A program made the translations under genes and the position numbers. From a bacterium (GTDB lineage Bacteria > Blakebacterota > Blakebacteria > Blakebacterales > Blakebacteraceae): 29,236 bases of DNA. The DNA lies in contig JALGVQ010000014.1 in the NCBI GenBank assembly GCA_025774615.1, positions 1-29,236 of the forward strand, in the 5' to 3' direction. This document shows, in pieces, positions 1-21,875 of the stretch. Each line of letters starts with the position of its first letter. The stretch's first letter is position 1. The notes under the pieces are model-generated. The model saw only the letters and a list, made by a program, of their open reading frames with translations, was not told where the DNA came from and made no database searches.

Positions 1-377
1 TCTGAACGGTCGTTCGAAGGATCGGAGCATTGCGGGAGCTGGATCGGTGTGTTCTTGCATGGGTCCAAGATAGTCATCCGCCTGACATGGTACACCCCGT
101 TTCCGGGGGCAGGAATTCCCCTCTCACCGGTCGATGTACCCCCCGGAAATCAACAGTTTCGTGAGGGGGGCCAGACGCACCTGTGATGTACGATAATGTA
201 ACAAACTATGTTCAATAACGTACTAGTAGTACTATAATGTAACTTATTCTGTGCCTGAGATGAGGAACAATGAGTGTCCAGACAGCGTCGGGACTCTGCT
301 ATTATATCCCGTAATTGCATGTATGACAACTGATTACTGGCTATGGTCAGACGCAGGTCGGGAGGATGCCTGAACGT
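1..377. other. non-coding or unassigned leader region
   Basis: I recognise no gene here. One forward frame is open from base 1 to the stop at 181-183, so the 3' end of an upstream gene is possible. Its translation resembles no family I know and its codon third positions are mixed, unlike the neighbouring genes. From about 181 to 345 the composition turns markedly AT-rich, in contrast with the rest of the window. That is typical of a regulatory region rather than a coding one. Confidence 0.5.
193..243. repeat. direct repeat pair with internal dyad in AT-rich patch
   Basis: The 10-mer ATAATGTAAC occurs at 193-202 and again at 234-243, 41 bp apart start to start. Between them lies an inverted repeat GTACT-AGT-AGTAC at 220-232. 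The second repeat overlaps a perfect TATAAT (233-238), which could also act as a sigma-70 -10 element, although the best -35 candidate (TTCAAT, 211-216, 16-bp spacer) is weak. The patch lies roughly 135-185 bp upstream of the sigma-54 promoter at 378-393. Upstream activator sites for NtrC-family proteins usually sit at about that distance, so a binding-site role is inferred. Confidence 0.45.
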
Positions 378-393
378 TGGCATGCTGATTGCA
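378..393 (+). promoter_or_regulatory. sigma-54 (-24/-12) promoter
   Basis: TGGCATG-CTGA-TTGCA matches the RpoN consensus TGGCACG-N4-TTGCW with one mismatch. The invariant GG (379-380) and GC (391-392) are separated by exactly 10 bp. Transcription would start near 404 and read into the membrane protein at 512, leaving a leader of about 108 nt. A sigma-54 activator gene converges on this locus from 2726 to 1248, which strengthens the call. Confidence 0.65.
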
Positions 394-511
394 TTAGTAG
401 TGTCAGTGAAACGCGAACGAAACGCATGGCAGGTACGGATCGTGGCGGCGCGACAGCGCGGCGACACGGTAGAGCAGCAACAAGCGCGGGATGTGTGGAA
501 GGAGCAATCCG

Positions 512-1102
512 ATGGCGGCGACAGCGACAGCGACAGCGATCTTAACAATAGCTCGGCAGGATCAGGCGCGAAGCCTGCGGTTGCGGGTCGTGGCAGTCTT
601 CGGACTTCTGGTGTCTCTCGGCGGGATCCTGGCCGGTTCTACTCCGCTCACCGACCAGATCCCGCTGCCGACATGGGGACTCGGTGCGGCGGCATTGCTC
701 GGACTGATATTGATGGCGAGTTCCGGCATGCGACTCCTGCAGATGAAGTCCGCGAACGAGGGCAGTGTTGCGAGCAGGAGCAGCGAGAGACCCGAGGATG
801 TGTGGGTGGCGATCACCCATGCGTTCGAGGGACTGCGAACCGGGATCGTGCCTATCATGCTGGCGCCGGATTCGGCAGATGAGGTGGCGCGGACAGCGTT
901 CGCTCAGGGAAATGAAGCATTTCAGTTTCTCGCGAGGCGGCAGAAGGTCGTGAGAGCGGCGGTCGATGATCTTCGGGAGGAACTGAACACGTATCACAAG
1001 TACCTGACCAGGAGTCAGGTTGGTCTTATCGGAGCCAATAGCGTCGCGGATCGTCTTGAGGACCTAGACAAGCGGCTGGCCAAGATTCGTTCTGTGGTGT
1101 GA
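512..1102 (+). CDS. two-TM membrane protein with C-terminal coiled coil, unknown function
   Basis: I do not recognise the family. The 196-aa protein has a short polar N-terminus with alternating Ala-Thr (residues 2-9), encoded by three copies of the hexamer GCGACA at 518-535. Two hydrophobic segments follow, at about residues 25-43 and 56-75. A soluble alpha-helical part comes next, and its end (about 143-194) is rich in heptad-like Leu/Ile/Val with charged residues, suggesting a coiled coil. The ATG at 512 is chosen because GGAAGGAG (497-504) lies 7 nt upstream; an in-frame ATG at 491 lacks a ribosome site. It is alone in its transcription unit, between a sigma-54 promoter and a strong terminator. 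A structural or stress-responsive inner-membrane role is possible but unproven. Confidence 0.7.
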   Translation: MAATATATAILTIARQDQARSLRLRVVAVFGLLVSLGGILAGSTPLTDQIPLPTWGLGAAALLGLILMASSGMRLLQMKSANEGSVASRSSERPEDVWVAITHAFEGLRTGIVPIMLAPDSADEVARTAFAQGNEAFQFLARRQKVVRAAVDDLREELNTYHKYLTRSQVGLIGANSVADRLEDLDKRLAKIRSVV

Positions 1103-1190
1103 GGCTCCGACTTATTAAAGCACGAGCCGGGTAACGGCCCGTCGAGCCCTGGGTGATGGGCCCGCCAGACTCGTGTGACACGTCCCGGAT

Positions 1191-1235
1191 CGGAGAGGAC
1201 TGCACCCCCTCTCCGGCCGGGGCGTTTCTTTTTTT
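1191..1235 (+). terminator. rho-independent terminator
   Basis: An 8-bp perfect stem, CGGAGAGG (1191-1198) with CCTCTCCG (1208-1215), encloses a 9-nt loop. A GC-rich stretch follows, then a T-rich run at 1225-1235. It ends the transcript of the gene at 512-1102. It lies just beyond the stop codon of the convergent regulator (1248), but has no T-tract in that direction. Confidence 0.8.
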
Positions 1236-1247
1236 GATATCCAGATA

Positions 1248-2726
1248 TTATCCAGCGTCCTCCGGCGATTTGGGCGACTCGGAAGCATCGGGAGTATTAA
1301 TCCGCCAGGAACTGTGTGTGATCCTGTATTTGGCGATCCTGTAATTGAGGGCACGCCGGCTGATACCAAGAAGACGCGCAGCTCTGCTCTGGACCCATGC
1401 AGACGTTTCAAGGGCATCAGTGATCGCCTGCTTCTCGATCTCCTCGAGACTGGTTCCCGGTGTCTTCTCTGTGATGACGCTGTCCGCGGCTGCTCCTGCC
1501 CCTGCAGGCACGTCCCGGGCTGTTTCCCTGGCGGTCCGGGATATCGCCAGGTCGTGGAGTTCGATTATCTCACCTTCAGAAAGAAGGACGGCCCTGGCGA
1601 CGGTATTCTCCAGCTCACGTACGTTCCCCGGCCAGGTATATGACTGCATGAATGACATCGCTTCAGCAGAGAAGTCACGAACCTGTTTCCGTTCTTCGAA
1701 CCGGGATTTTTTGAGGAAGAACTGCGCCAGCAGGGGAATGTCCTCGCGTCGCTCCCGCAATGGGGGCAATTGGATGGTCACCACATTCAGCCGGTAGTAG
1801 AGATCCTCCCTGAATCCACCGTCGGCGATCTCCTTTTCGAGCACCCGGTTGGTGGCGGCGATGATGCGGACATTGACCCGGGTCAGCCTGGTCCCTCCCA
1901 GTCGTTCGAATTCCTGGCTCTGAAGTACCCGCAGGACCTTGGCCTGGGTAGCGGGGCTCATATCGCCGATCTCATCAAGGAAGAGGGTGCCGCGGTTGGC
2001 CTGTTCAAAGCGCCCGATCCGCTGCTTGACCGCGCCGGTGAACGCGCCCTTCTCGTGACCGAAGAGCTCTGACTCCAGCAACGTGTCCTGGAGCGCCGCG
2101 CAGTTCACTTTGATGAACGGCTGATCGGTGCGGGGGCTGTTGTAGTGGATGGCTGCCGCGATCAGTTCTTTTCCCGATCCGGTCTCGCCGCTGATCAGGA
2201 CCGGGGTGCGGCTGGAAGCTACCTTGGAGACCTGCTGGAACACATCCTGCATCGATTCACTCTCGCCGATGATGTCCCGCAGGCGGAAGATGTGACCGCT
2301 CTGACCAACGAAATAATTCCGCTGGGAGATCCAGGCATAGGTTTCATTTGCCCGTTCGATCCTGAGGGTGAGTTCTTCCACCGAGAGGGGAGCCCTCACC
2401 ACATCGTGAACACCGGCGGTGATGAGCCTCTTCAGGGTGGTCTCATCAGGCACGTCATACACGACGATCCTGGCCTGGGAACTTCCCTCCAGCGCCTCCT
2501 TGAGAAACTGATCGACCAGTTGATCATCGAGGTCGTCATCTTCTCCGGTGAGCATCGCGAAATCGGTCACCACGATCCCGAATGATATCTGGCCGGTGAT
2601 CTGATGGTAGATATCCCAGCCGGGCGCGTGGGAGAGATACCCCACACTGGCATCGAGCTGGGCGGTCAGAGTCTCCATCATCTCGATGCCGGGAGTGAAG
2701 AGGAGCGTTGGACAGGAGAGGATCAT
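1248..2726 (-). CDS. NtrC-family sigma-54 activator with atypical receiver domain
   Basis: 492-aa bacterial enhancer-binding protein. Residues 1-125 look like a receiver fold: the strand ending VVTDFAML has Asp55 at the usual phospho-site. The N-terminal acidic pair is missing, and the conserved Lys of the KP motif is replaced by Arg111 (RAPLS). The AAA+ domain is intact: Walker A GETGSGKE (180-187), sigma-54 contact loop GAFTGA (227-232), Walker B LFLDE (248-252), FREDLYYRLNV (305-315) and WPGNVREL (365-372). A Fis-type helix-turn-helix lies at about 443-467, followed by a polar tail. Its ATG overlaps the stop of the upstream membrane-protein gene (ATGA) and has GGGAGG just upstream, so translation is coupled. 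No histidine kinase is adjacent. Activation may therefore not need phosphorylation, and the membrane partner may supply the signal (inference). Confidence 0.9.
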   Translation of the reverse strand: MILSCPTLLFTPGIEMMETLTAQLDASVGYLSHAPGWDIYHQITGQISFGIVVTDFAMLTGEDDDLDDQLVDQFLKEALEGSSQARIVVYDVPDETTLKRLITAGVHDVVRAPLSVEELTLRIERANETYAWISQRNYFVGQSGHIFRLRDIIGESESMQDVFQQVSKVASSRTPVLISGETGSGKELIAAAIHYNSPRTDQPFIKVNCAALQDTLLESELFGHEKGAFTGAVKQRIGRFEQANRGTLFLDEIGDMSPATQAKVLRVLQSQEFERLGGTRLTRVNVRIIAATNRVLEKEIADGGFREDLYYRLNVVTIQLPPLRERREDIPLLAQFFLKKSRFEERKQVRDFSAEAMSFMQSYTWPGNVRELENTVARAVLLSEGEIIELHDLAISRTARETARDVPAGAGAAADSVITEKTPGTSLEEIEKQAITDALETSAWVQSRAARLLGISRRALNYRIAKYRITHSSWRINTPDASESPKSPEDAG

Positions 2727-3316
2727 TCTCTTCCTCCCGGGTAGACCATGAAGATCGCTTCAAGCATCGCCGCGCCCAGCAGGAGGGGAACGGTGGCCCG
2801 CAGGAAGAAGGCCCGTGCCCATACAACATCGGAAAGGATGTCGAACCAGTCGAGCCCAAGGGTGGCGGCTGAGGCCTGCAGCGCTACCGCTGACGAAGCG
2901 ATGATGATCGGCAGTTCGATCCAGGAGTGGGGCATCAGTAACACGAGCCAGATCCGCTTCCCTCCTGCGCGCCAGGCCATGACACCGGTGTTGAATCCGG
3001 TGAACATGATGAGGATCACGCTCAACGGAGGCGCCCAGGCGGCCATGATGACGATCAGGATGGTGGCAGCATTGATCAGGGTGATCATCAACGTCAGATA
3101 GACCAGCCCTCCTGGTCTCTCTTCCAGCCATTGCTCCAGTTTGCGCAGGATCCAGCGTCCCCAGGCGGTTGCCCACGTGACCTCCTTCTTCTCAGCCACG
3201 ATACCCAGCCAGAGACCGCCGAAGAAAAGGACCGCCGCCACGGCAACTGCCTGCCAGACGAGTGGACCCCATATGAAAGACCAGGGTCTTGCGAACCACC
3301 ATAAAACCGTTGACAC
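2723..3316 (-). CDS. SpoIIM/DUF95-like integral membrane protein
   Basis: Roughly 197-aa polytopic membrane protein with about five hydrophobic segments. The stretch GFNTGVMAWR followed by LLMPHSWIELPIIIASSAVAL resembles the SpoIIM/DUF95 signature, where an H-x-x-x-E-L-P-like motif precedes a small-residue-rich helix. In sporulators SpoIIM works with SpoIID/P in peptidoglycan remodelling; in non-sporulators the family's role is unknown. I chose GTG at 3316, with GGGAGG (3331-3326) 9 nt upstream. GTG at 3337 is possible but has no ribosome site. The gene overlaps the sigma-54 activator by 4 nt, so the pair is probably one regulatory unit. greA diverges from the same intergenic region. Family assignment is from motif resemblance only. 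Confidence 0.7.
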   Translation of the reverse strand: MSTVLWWFARPWSFIWGPLVWQAVAVAAVLFFGGLWLGIVAEKKEVTWATAWGRWILRKLEQWLEERPGGLVYLTLMITLINAATILIVIMAAWAPPLSVILIMFTGFNTGVMAWRAGGKRIWLVLLMPHSWIELPIIIASSAVALQASAATLGLDWFDILSDVVWARAFFLRATVPLLLGAAMLEAIFMVYPGGRE

Positions 3317-3357
3317 CGGCACGAACCTCCCATTCACTGAAAGTGTCGGTCATGAGG

Positions 3358-3371: not shown

Positions 3372-3440
3372 GGTGAGGTACACGGCTTTCCCTGGAGAGG
3401 GGGAGCCGTTTTACATTGTTCACCTGACAGGGCTCAAGGC

Positions 3441-3926
3441 ATGGTAAAGCCAACATACCTTAGCAGCAAAGCGATTGAAGAACTCGGGGCAGAACTGCAC
3501 GAACTGAAATTCGTGCGGCAGCCGGCGATAAGCCGGGAGATCGGGACGGCCCGGGAGCATGGAGACATCTCCGAGAACGCGGAATACGACGCGGCGAAGG
3601 AGGAGCAGAGCCACCTTCAGCGCCGGATAGCGCAGCTTGAGGATATCCTGGCTACTGCGCGCCCGGTCGAAGAACTCGAGATGCCGGAAGGAACCTGCTA
3701 CATCGGATGCACAGTAACGCTGGAGGATCTTGAAGACGGCAGTGAGGAGATCTATACACTCGTGGCGCCTCCGGAAGCCGATCCCCGCAAGGGAACACTC
3801 AGTGTCGAGAGTCCGATCGGCAGCGGGTTGCTGGGTAAAGAAGTAGAGGATACCGTGTCGATCCAGATTCCTGCCGGCGAGGTCAGATACCGGATCATTT
3901 CTGTGGAGCGAAATATCGGGAATTGA
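3441..3926 (+). CDS. greA: transcription elongation factor GreA
   Basis: 161-aa cleavage factor that rescues backtracked RNA polymerase by stimulating transcript cleavage through the secondary channel. The N-terminal coiled-coil hairpin carries the tip motif EHGDISENAEYDAAKEEQ, with acidic Asp42 and Glu45 matching the catalytic tip residues of GreA. The C-terminal FKBP-like domain runs from about 80 to the end. Length agrees with the family (about 158 aa). The frame stays open well upstream, but MVKPTYLS is the natural start; CAGGG (3428-3432) lies 8 nt ahead. It is divergent from the SpoIIM-like operon. Two hairpins without a U-tract follow its stop. Confidence 0.95.
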   Translation: MVKPTYLSSKAIEELGAELHELKFVRQPAISREIGTAREHGDISENAEYDAAKEEQSHLQRRIAQLEDILATARPVEELEMPEGTCYIGCTVTLEDLEDGSEEIYTLVAPPEADPRKGTLSVESPIGSGLLGKEVEDTVSIQIPAGEVRYRIISVERNIGN

Positions 3927-18629: not shown

Positions 18630-20512
18630 TGGCCGCGACCTCCCTGCAGCCGCAGCCGGGCCAGCGCCTTCCCCTGGTGGGCGGGCTTTTTCAGCGGCTC
18701 TTTTTCCACCATCTCGTGCTGGTGACGGTGCCGATCGTTGTCCTCGGACTCCTTCTGGTCAGCATCACTGACGGGTCGATCGAAGAAACGCTGAACAGGG
18801 AGAGCACGGAGATCACCACCCAGGTCAGTGGACAGATACAACGCTTCATCACCGATGTGGAGGACCGGCTCGGCGGAATAGCGTTCGCGCTCGGTCAGGC
18901 CTGGACAGACCCGGAAACAGGGGCGCTAAGACCTGAGATGAGCGAGAACTGGCTCAATCAGGCCATGGCGAAAAAAGCGTATAGCCTTTTCAGCCGTCTC
19001 GGCGTTGTCGATACACTGCGGACGCTCGTTGCCACTACCGACTTCTCGGCCGAACCACTCTCTCCACTGGAAGAGGGTCTGGCCGGTTCGATCCTCGACT
19101 CCACTCAGATGATCGCCGCGCGTGAACTGAGGCAGGAGGTGGGCGGGACCTTCAGCATGGTCATGGCCGTGCCGATCACAAGCAGCTTTGATGAGCTCGT
19201 TGGTGCCGTGGTCGCGGTTGTGGATGCCAATGAGATCCGGGAACTGGTTGCCAACATCACTATTGGGGAGCGTGGACGCGCTTTTCTCACCGACGCCCAG
19301 GGACTCCTGATCGCCCATGCCAGTACCGCCCTGGTGTATGCGAAGACCAACTATGCCGATCTCACATCTGTACAGAATGCCCTCGAGACTCCACTGGTTG
19401 AAATAGCCCCTGCGCCGGTGACTGATCTGATCTCGGAGGGTGACAGGCCGGATGTGGTGATGACGGCTCACTGGGCCAACATCGCTTCCGCTTCAGGACT
19501 GCACTGGGTCCTGGTGATCCATCGTCCGACAACGGAAGTGAGTGATACATCCGATCGGATGCGTATCCAGGTACTGATCGTGATCCTTGTCGGGATCGCG
19601 CTCGCGCTGATTTCGACCCTTGTCTACACACGACGGCTTGTAACCCCGATCGGGGCGCTCGTTGAAGGAGCCAACCGGCTGAGTCAGGGGGATCTTTCCT
19701 ACAAGATCCCGGTCGCCGGACACGATGAACTGGGAACTCTTGCCACTGAGTTCAACCTGATGGCGGACCAGCTCTCCCAGATCCAGCTGCGGCTCCGACG
19801 GGTCGAACATCTCGATACCCTGGCGAAGTTCTCTTCTGTCGTCGCGCATGAGATCCGGAACCCGCTCAACGCAATGCAGATCAACCTCCATCTTCTCCGG
19901 GAACGGATCGGCCAGGAGGATCAGGAATACCTCGATGTGATCTCCGGAGAGATCCTTCGGCTCGAGAACCTGGTGCGGGAATTCCAGACGATCTCCCGAC
20001 CGCCTGCCCTGAGTCCGGTCCGTACAGACATGAACATTCTGCTTGATGATCTCGTCCATCTTCAGAAGGGTACTGCCTCAGCCCAGGGTGTCGAACTGGT
20101 CACCGATCTTGAATCGGGACTGCCGATGGTGGAGGTCGACAGGAACCGGATCACTCAGGCGGTCCTGAATGTTGTCTTGAACGCGCTTCAGGCAATGCCC
20201 ACCGGCGGTACCCTCCTGGTGAGGACCAGGAAGAATGAAGAGCGGGGGAGCGGCTGGATCCTGATCGAGGTGACCGACACCGGTGAGGGGATCCCCGAAG
20301 ATGATCTGCCGAATGTATTCGATTTCTACTTCACGTCACGTGATTCCGGTTCCGGGCTGGGGCTCTCGATAGCGTACCGTATCGTATTCGAACACGGTGG
20401 GCAGATAAGTCTTAACAGCAGGCCCGGAGAGGGCACGACGGTTTTGATTTCCCTGTCACCGGGACCACCTCTGACACCGGTCGTAAATGAACCTGCCCCG
20501 GAGGGGGAGTGA
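18629..20512 (+). CDS. dCache-type sensor histidine kinase
   Basis: 627-aa membrane kinase. TM1 is at about 27-46, an extracytoplasmic region of about 265 residues with Cache-like character follows (AVPITSSFDELVGAVVAVVD, GRAFLTDAQGLLIAH), and TM2 is at about 313-333. A HAMP domain (about 334-388) leads to the HisKA dimerisation helix with phospho-accepting His407 in VVAHEIRNPLNAMQ. The catalytic domain has the N box around Asn518, DTGEGI (550-555) and GSGLGLS (574-580). The start overlaps the stop of the binding-protein gene, and the cognate regulator follows 1 nt after its own stop. This is an NtrB-like architecture pairing with an NtrC-type regulator. The large sensor region could contact ligand or the neighbouring binding protein (inference). 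Confidence 0.93.
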   Translation: MAATSLQPQPGQRLPLVGGLFQRLFFHHLVLVTVPIVVLGLLLVSITDGSIEETLNRESTEITTQVSGQIQRFITDVEDRLGGIAFALGQAWTDPETGALRPEMSENWLNQAMAKKAYSLFSRLGVVDTLRTLVATTDFSAEPLSPLEEGLAGSILDSTQMIAARELRQEVGGTFSMVMAVPITSSFDELVGAVVAVVDANEIRELVANITIGERGRAFLTDAQGLLIAHASTALVYAKTNYADLTSVQNALETPLVEIAPAPVTDLISEGDRPDVVMTAHWANIASASGLHWVLVIHRPTTEVSDTSDRMRIQVLIVILVGIALALISTLVYTRRLVTPIGALVEGANRLSQGDLSYKIPVAGHDELGTLATEFNLMADQLSQIQLRLRRVEHLDTLAKFSSVVAHEIRNPLNAMQINLHLLRERIGQEDQEYLDVISGEILRLENLVREFQTISRPPALSPVRTDMNILLDDLVHLQKGTASAQGVELVTDLESGLPMVEVDRNRITQAVLNVVLNALQAMPTGGTLLVRTRKNEERGSGWILIEVTDTGEGIPEDDLPNVFDFYFTSRDSGSGLGLSIAYRIVFEHGGQISLNSRPGEGTTVLISLSPGPPLTPVVNEPAPEGE

Positions 20513-20513
20513 G

Positions 20514-21875
20514 ATGGCGAAGATCCTTATCGCGGAAGACGACCTCAATACTCTGCAGGGGCTCGAGACGATCATCGCCCGGGAAGATCATGAGGTCCTG
20601 ATAGCCGCCGACGGCCGGGAGGCGTATGAACTGATGGTCTCCCACGGGGATGTCGATGTGCTGCTTACCGACCTGAAGATGCCTCATCTCACCGGGCTCG
20701 AATTGAGCAGAAAGGTCCGGGAGGGGTTTCCGGAGACCCAGATCATCGTCATGACGGCGTTTGGAACAGTTGATACAGCGGTAAATGCTATGAAGGACGG
20801 TGTATTCGACTACCTCACCAAGCCGGTGGATATAGAGGAACTGCTCGTTGTACTCGGCAAGGCGCTCCGCTCACGGGAACTGCTCCTTGAGAACCTCGAA
20901 TTGCGGGGTATGGTATCAGAGCGGTACGCGTTCGAGAACATCATCTCCGTTTCGGGTGTGATGCAGAACATCTTCCGCAAGATCCGTAAAGTCGCGCCAA
21001 CCAGCGCAACCGTACTGATCGAAGGGGAATCAGGGACCGGCAAGGAACTGATCGCCCGGGCCATCCACTATAACAGCCCCCGGGAGAAGGAGTCGATGGT
21101 GGAGGTGAACTGTGCCTCCATTCCGGCGACGCTCATCGAATCGGAACTCTTCGGTCACGAGAAAGGCGCTTTCACTGGAGCCTACCGGACCCAGAAAGGA
21201 AAATTTGAGGTCGCAGACGGCGGGACGATCTTCCTTGACGAGATCAGTCTTCTCAGCCCCGACCTGCAGGGCAAACTATTGAGGGTTCTGCAGGAGCGCT
21301 CGTTCCAGCGTGTGGGCGGTAATCGGAATGTCGAAGTGGATGTGCGGGTGGTCGCTGCCACGAATCAGGATCTGAAAGCGATGGTGGACAGGGGTGAGTT
21401 CCGGGAGGACCTCTATTACCGGCTGAATGTGATACCCATACACATCCCCCCCCTTCGCGAACGACCAGAGGATATCACCGCGCTGGTGACTCATTTCATG
21501 AAGGCATTCTCCACCGATCATCCCGGCGCTCCCCGAAGTATCACCCAGGGCGCACTCGATGAACTCGTGGAGTATGACTGGCCGGGTAATGTGAGAGAAC
21601 TTGAGAATGCCATCGAGAGCGCTATCATCACTGCTGACGGGGATGTTATTTCGGAGGATCATCTGAATATCCTGGAGACCTCGGCCTGGGAGCGGACAGA
21701 AACGGCTGATGAGGCCGGGACGTCCCTCTCCATGAAGGAACAGCTCGATCGCGCTGAAAAGAAGATATTAAGGCGGACCCTTGAACAGGTGGATGGGAAT
21801 CGTACCCGGGCCGCGGAAGTCCTTGGATTGAGTACGAGAGCTATCAGGTACAAGATCAAGCAGTACGAACTCTGA
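20514..21875 (+). CDS. NtrC-family sigma-54-dependent response regulator
   Basis: 453-aa regulator. The receiver is complete: Asp9/Asp10, phospho-site Asp53 in LLTDLKMP, Thr81 and Lys103 (LTKP). The AAA+ domain carries GESGTGKE (171-178), GAFTGA (218-223), TIFLDEIS, FREDLYYRLNV and WPGNVREL. A Fis-type helix-turn-helix closes the protein. ATG 20514 is chosen over an upstream in-frame start because the GGAGGGGGAG run (20500-20509) lies 4 nt ahead and the receiver begins there. Phosphorylation by the adjacent kinase should drive ATP-dependent opening of sigma-54 promoters. I found no good -24/-12 site in front of the genes just downstream, so targets may lie elsewhere. Confidence 0.95.
   Translation: MAKILIAEDDLNTLQGLETIIAREDHEVLIAADGREAYELMVSHGDVDVLLTDLKMPHLTGLELSRKVREGFPETQIIVMTAFGTVDTAVNAMKDGVFDYLTKPVDIEELLVVLGKALRSRELLLENLELRGMVSERYAFENIISVSGVMQNIFRKIRKVAPTSATVLIEGESGTGKELIARAIHYNSPREKESMVEVNCASIPATLIESELFGHEKGAFTGAYRTQKGKFEVADGGTIFLDEISLLSPDLQGKLLRVLQERSFQRVGGNRNVEVDVRVVAATNQDLKAMVDRGEFREDLYYRLNVIPIHIPPLRERPEDITALVTHFMKAFSTDHPGAPRSITQGALDELVEYDWPGNVRELENAIESAIITADGDVISEDHLNILETSAWERTETADEAGTSLSMKEQLDRAEKKILRRTLEQVDGNRTRAAEVLGLSTRAIRYKIKQYEL

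Follow-up and report, generated by a model that had tools for sequence, protein, structure and literature searches.

The left part of the window, by which we mean the whole 29,236-nt stretch of DNA that was analysed, probably encodes a dedicated sigma-54 module, in which an activator is predicted to switch on the gene of a 196-amino-acid protein with two TM segments (P196) and a SpoIIM-like membrane protein would serve as controller. The window corresponds to contig C221 in a MAG of 3.30 Mb that is 82% complete. It was compared within a set of four genomes of its taxonomic family, which belong to two genera and are 63–85% complete; beyond those four, the nearest kin listed are related at the level of 'same domain' only.

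P196, the presumed target gene (512–1102, + strand), has homologues in the three relatives and converges tail-to-tail with an operon on the − strand (3337–1248), where the gene of the SpoIIM-like integral membrane protein (2723–3337) is followed by that of the sigma-54 activator (1248–2726). An earlier sequence-only reading had described this arrangement, a convergent activator operon facing the gene of a two-TM protein, and had named conservation of the gene trio beforehand as a test. Our comparison confirms the layout, and the three genes keep their convergent order in 4/4 family genomes. One of these loci (G001) is divided between contigs C126 and C142, both of which carry the same P196 3′ end. 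The greA gene, which starts at 3441 and is divergent from the SpoIIM-like operon, is a conserved neighbour of the trio. Just 5′ of its start codon, all four genomes harbor a hairpin followed by TTTT (3382–3413, + strand), possibly a leader terminator of greA. At the other side, the left end of the window reads as the start of a purL gene, judged from L015 and L008.

The predicted promoter of P196 corresponds to the −24/−12 element TGGCATGCTGATTGCA at 378–393 (+ strand), which matches TGGCAYRNNNNTTGCW with zero mismatches. Allowing for zero or one mismatch, two −24/−12 matches were detected in the window, compared to 0.41 expected. Equivalent elements are present in the relatives, and the four versions (TTGGCATGCTGATTGCA in the window, then TTGGCACGATGATTGCG, TTGGCACGGGGATTGCG and TTGGCACGGGTGTTGCG) share the exact GG–GC spacing amid otherwise diverged DNA, so that the near-consensus promoter previously read at this position is kept in all genomes of the set. 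The window's genome also contains rpoN, whose presence had been proposed as a check. We consider the assignment of this promoter to its target well supported at the level of sequence. By contrast, the second, weaker −24/−12 site that had been placed before the SpoIIM-like operon did not hold up, being unconserved and no better than chance: its best match is 9/13, a value routinely reached by shuffled sequence. Another operon-side candidate that is kept within the genus was rejected as well, as it overlaps the first greA codons and has the wrong GG–GC spacing.

Sites matching the strict −24/−12 pattern are rare, numbering 7, 6, 5 and 3 across the four genomes, none of which contains the reversed control pattern. 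Several of the other strict sites precede genes which, named by eye, are pilC-like, pilus-type, surface/envelope-type or lipoprotein-like, in keeping with a published account in which sigma-54 controls the exterior of bacterial cells (PMC3162934). Strict sites were also observed upstream of a protein with a tandem 15-aa repeat (EELQEKEAPRRAP[MILV]G) at L053 1446–1934, in the same context at L042, and at L051 before a protein with a repeat related to that of L053 and L042.

The protein encoded at 1248–2726 is a sigma-54 activator both by its AAA+ domain with a GAFTGA-type loop and by its C-terminal Fis-type HTH (Pfam Sigma54_activat, PF00158, 246.5 bits; AAA lid; HTH_8, 60.1 bits). The AAA+ domain is intact, with the loop sequence GAFTGA in the window and GSFTGA in the relatives, whose activators are 81, 69 and 68% identical to that of the window. 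Although a Pfam search of the N-terminus returned no receiver match, hhalign aligned it to seven receivers of the same genome with a probability of 88% (E 2.9e-6). This alignment confirms that the residues reported missing in the sequence-only reading are indeed lost: the acidic pair is absent in all four activators, with LLFTP or LLFAP in its place at the start of the domain, and the position of the KP Lys is occupied by Ala in each of them. Among the residues that define canonical response regulators (acidic pair, phospho-Asp, Lys), only D55 is kept, which places the activator outside this class. Likewise, the reported lack of a kinase neighbour was borne out, as the genes adjoining the operon are greA and P196. 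No relatives of the receiver-like domain were detected outside the family among 386 genomes.

The domain plan of the activator, receiver-like domain followed by AAA+ and Fis-type HTH, is that of NtrC/AtoC-type proteins, from which it differs by the loss of the acidic pair and Lys, the missing adjacent kinase and the coupling to a membrane protein. In FleQ and VpsR, a degenerate receiver precedes the AAA+ and HTH domains; both proteins are among the sequence matches and have a similar domain plan, while, as regards the c-di-GMP contacts of FleQ, the residues after Walker A presumably differ here. Within the same genome, one further activator, at L031 416–2029, has a receiver-like N-terminus in which, judged by eye, the acidic pair likewise appears to be missing. 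The window itself encodes a second sigma-54 activator with a canonical receiver (20487–21875, + strand).

The SpoIIM-like protein scores 34.8 bits against the Pfam SpoIIM family (PF01944, also known as DUF95), above the cut-off of 26.9, and is 84, 58 and 61% identical to the window in the three relatives; its AlphaFold model has a pLDDT of 44. Its gene overlaps that of the activator by 4 nt in all four genomes, in agreement with the translational coupling proposed before. By itself, such coupling in an operon implies co-expression only. The published descriptions of SpoIIM/DUF95 proteins that we consulted assign them roles in engulfment and within circular-bacteriocin clusters, and among the papers searched, SpoIIM was named together with sigma-54 in broad transcriptome studies only.

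The loss of receiver residues, the lack of an adjacent kinase and the translational coupling together make direct control by the SpoIIM-like protein the most likely mode of regulation, in which it would hold or release the activator depending on the state of the membrane or envelope, without phosphotransfer. Kinase-free, membrane-linked control of this kind is known from the Psp system, where PspF, a sigma-54 activator that is controlled without phosphotransfer and linked to membrane proteins, acts via upstream sites on the sigma-54 promoter of a membrane-associated protein. By this analogy, the best candidate for a controller of the activator would be the SpoIIM-like protein, and we infer that this protein may sense an envelope state. 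The two systems differ in that PspF has no receiver-like domain, whereas the activator described here carries one, and in that PspB/PspC take the place of the SpoIIM-like protein. PspA (PF04012) gave no match over the cut-off in the four family genomes, which are 63–85% complete.

Alternatively, the activator could be an orphan response regulator, with D55 phosphorylated by a distant kinase or a small phosphodonor and the SpoIIM-like partner having no sensory role. D55 is invariant and aligned with the phospho-Asp of receivers, so that the activator might still be phosphorylated, and many activators of this genome resemble typical response regulators: most of the twelve that we read by eye have an ordinary receiver. 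However, the absent Mg2+-binding acidic pair and the Lys-to-Ala replacement in 4/4 genomes speak against a phosphorylated receiver, as does the lack of an adjacent kinase gene, and we consider this explanation unlikely.

Upstream of the promoter, we identified two candidate activator sites that the sequence-only reading does not mention. Both are 15 bp long and related to GTAC-N6-GTAAC: site 1 (GTACGATAATGTAAC) at 188–202, with an aligned site in all four genomes, and site 2 (GTACTATAATGTAAC) at 229–243, both on the + strand. The distance between the two sites is exactly 41 bp in each of the four genomes; here the anchors were picked by eye in each genome, so that the spacing is a measurement and the site borders are a reading. 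A distance of 41 bp corresponds to about four helical turns. From site 2 to the GG of the −24 box, the distance varies between 134 and 141 bp. When the window's own genome was searched with up to one mismatch, the motif was found only at 188–202 and 229–243; the site sequence of G003 is too different for a one-mismatch search to find it. This uniqueness strongly favours a dedicated enhancer-type activator at the P196 promoter, for which the paired sites are the strongest evidence, and the conservation of both promoter and sites in 4/4 genomes looks like that of a real, dedicated regulatory switch. In the interval between the paired sites and the −24/−12 box, there is also a sigma-70-like promoter match (11/12) at 329–301 on the − strand, pointing toward the leftward gene.

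In the model that best explains this arrangement, the activator would bind to the paired sites, loop to the RNA polymerase–sigma54 complex at 378–393 and remodel this complex via ATP hydrolysis, whereby P196 would be switched on. That it is the adjacent activator which acts on these sites is suggested by adjacency, shared distribution and site uniqueness. The genome contains 17 PF00158 matches, 16 of them strong, making the adjacent activator the best candidate for the sites rather than a proven one. These numbers also qualify the earlier description of the module as self-contained, which the adjacency and co-conservation of the trio support and the 16 strong activator domains weaken. Another of these activators might drive the sigma-54 promoter of P196, with the neighbouring operon being a separate unit that lies nearby by an accident of gene order; since greA is a conserved neighbour too, the gene block may simply be stable. 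Against this, the paired sites occur nowhere else in the genome and keep their exact 41-bp spacing, and the narrow distribution of P196 is also that of the receiver-like domain, leaving little probability for a foreign activator. Of the interpretation given in the sequence-only reading, the promoter–target part is well supported, based on the trio, the promoter in 4/4 genomes, rpoN and the paired sites, and envelope sensing by the SpoIIM-like protein is a reasonable conjecture; the second −24/−12 site found no support.

P196 has two hydrophobic segments, at about residues 21–46 and 50–76, followed by a C-terminal region of ∼115 residues that is predicted to be helical (AlphaFold, all-helical at low confidence, pLDDT 52). 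The Arg-rich flanks of the segments suggest that both ends of the protein face the cytosol, and the helical domain is probably cytosolic. The homologues in the relatives are 73, 57 and 55% identical to the window. Searches of Pfam and NCBIfam returned no match over the cut-off and those of the PDB none, with matches at chance level at most, and relatives outside the family were found neither in a GTDB r220 scan nor among 386 genomes, a restricted distribution that P196 has in common with the receiver-like domain of the activator. Downstream of the gene, an 8+8 bp stem at 1181–1224 is followed by a T-rich tract at 1225–1235. The description of P196 as an unknown two-TM protein that has its own terminator remains valid.

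The earlier reading did not include the 3′ end of P196, which is conserved beyond its protein sequence. In the last 34 codons (coding tail, 1001–1102, + strand), synonymous identity between the genera exceeds that of the remaining codons (pairwise Fisher p from 5e-5 to 9e-3, for genome pairs that are not independent and a tail border that was set after viewing the alignment). The tail contains an inverted repeat, ACCTGAC-N5-GTCAGGT at 1002–1020, whose TGAC-N5-GTCA core is identical in all four genomes. Conservation extends into the 3′UTR (1103–1235, + strand), which comprises a hairpin at 1121–1175 and the terminator hairpin, and the DNA from 1000 to 1240 matches the relatives at 78–89% identity. 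Compared to shuffled sequences, 998–1240 folds with a z of −4.3. In the hairpin at 1121–1175, CACGAG/CTCGTG in one genus is replaced by CACCGG/CCGGTG in the other with pairing kept, as read from the alignment by hand; G001 and G003 each have one mismatch. A strong RNA structure within the coding tail was also considered but found little backing in comparison with synonymous-codon shuffles, which the tail surpasses in stability by a small margin only (z −1.1 to −3.0).

We take the sequence constraint at the 3′ end of P196 to be real. Its structured part might act as a 3′UTR-derived regulatory RNA or pair in antisense with the convergent activator mRNA, which would be compatible with the dedicated sigma-54 module and would fit the synonymous constraint, the conserved and stably folding 3′UTR and the compensatory changes in its hairpin, but we regard this as doubtful given that the coding part is only weakly special under synonymous shuffling, that the opposite strand folds well too (z −4.0), that Rfam yielded nothing at the gathering score (two chance-level matches lie elsewhere) and that the comparison comprises four sequences from two genera only. 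A more far-reaching version, in which the SpoIIM-like protein directly gates an activator whose receiver is dead, while a single transcript provides both a new helical two-TM protein and a structured 3′ regulatory RNA, has a slim chance of being correct.

If the proposed sigma-54 module is right, SpoIIM/DUF95 proteins, known from sporulation and bacteriocin clusters, would be possible controllers of sigma-54 activators. Moreover, promoter, paired sites, activator, candidate controller and target would all lie within 3.2 kb, a unit that could be moved to a laboratory host.
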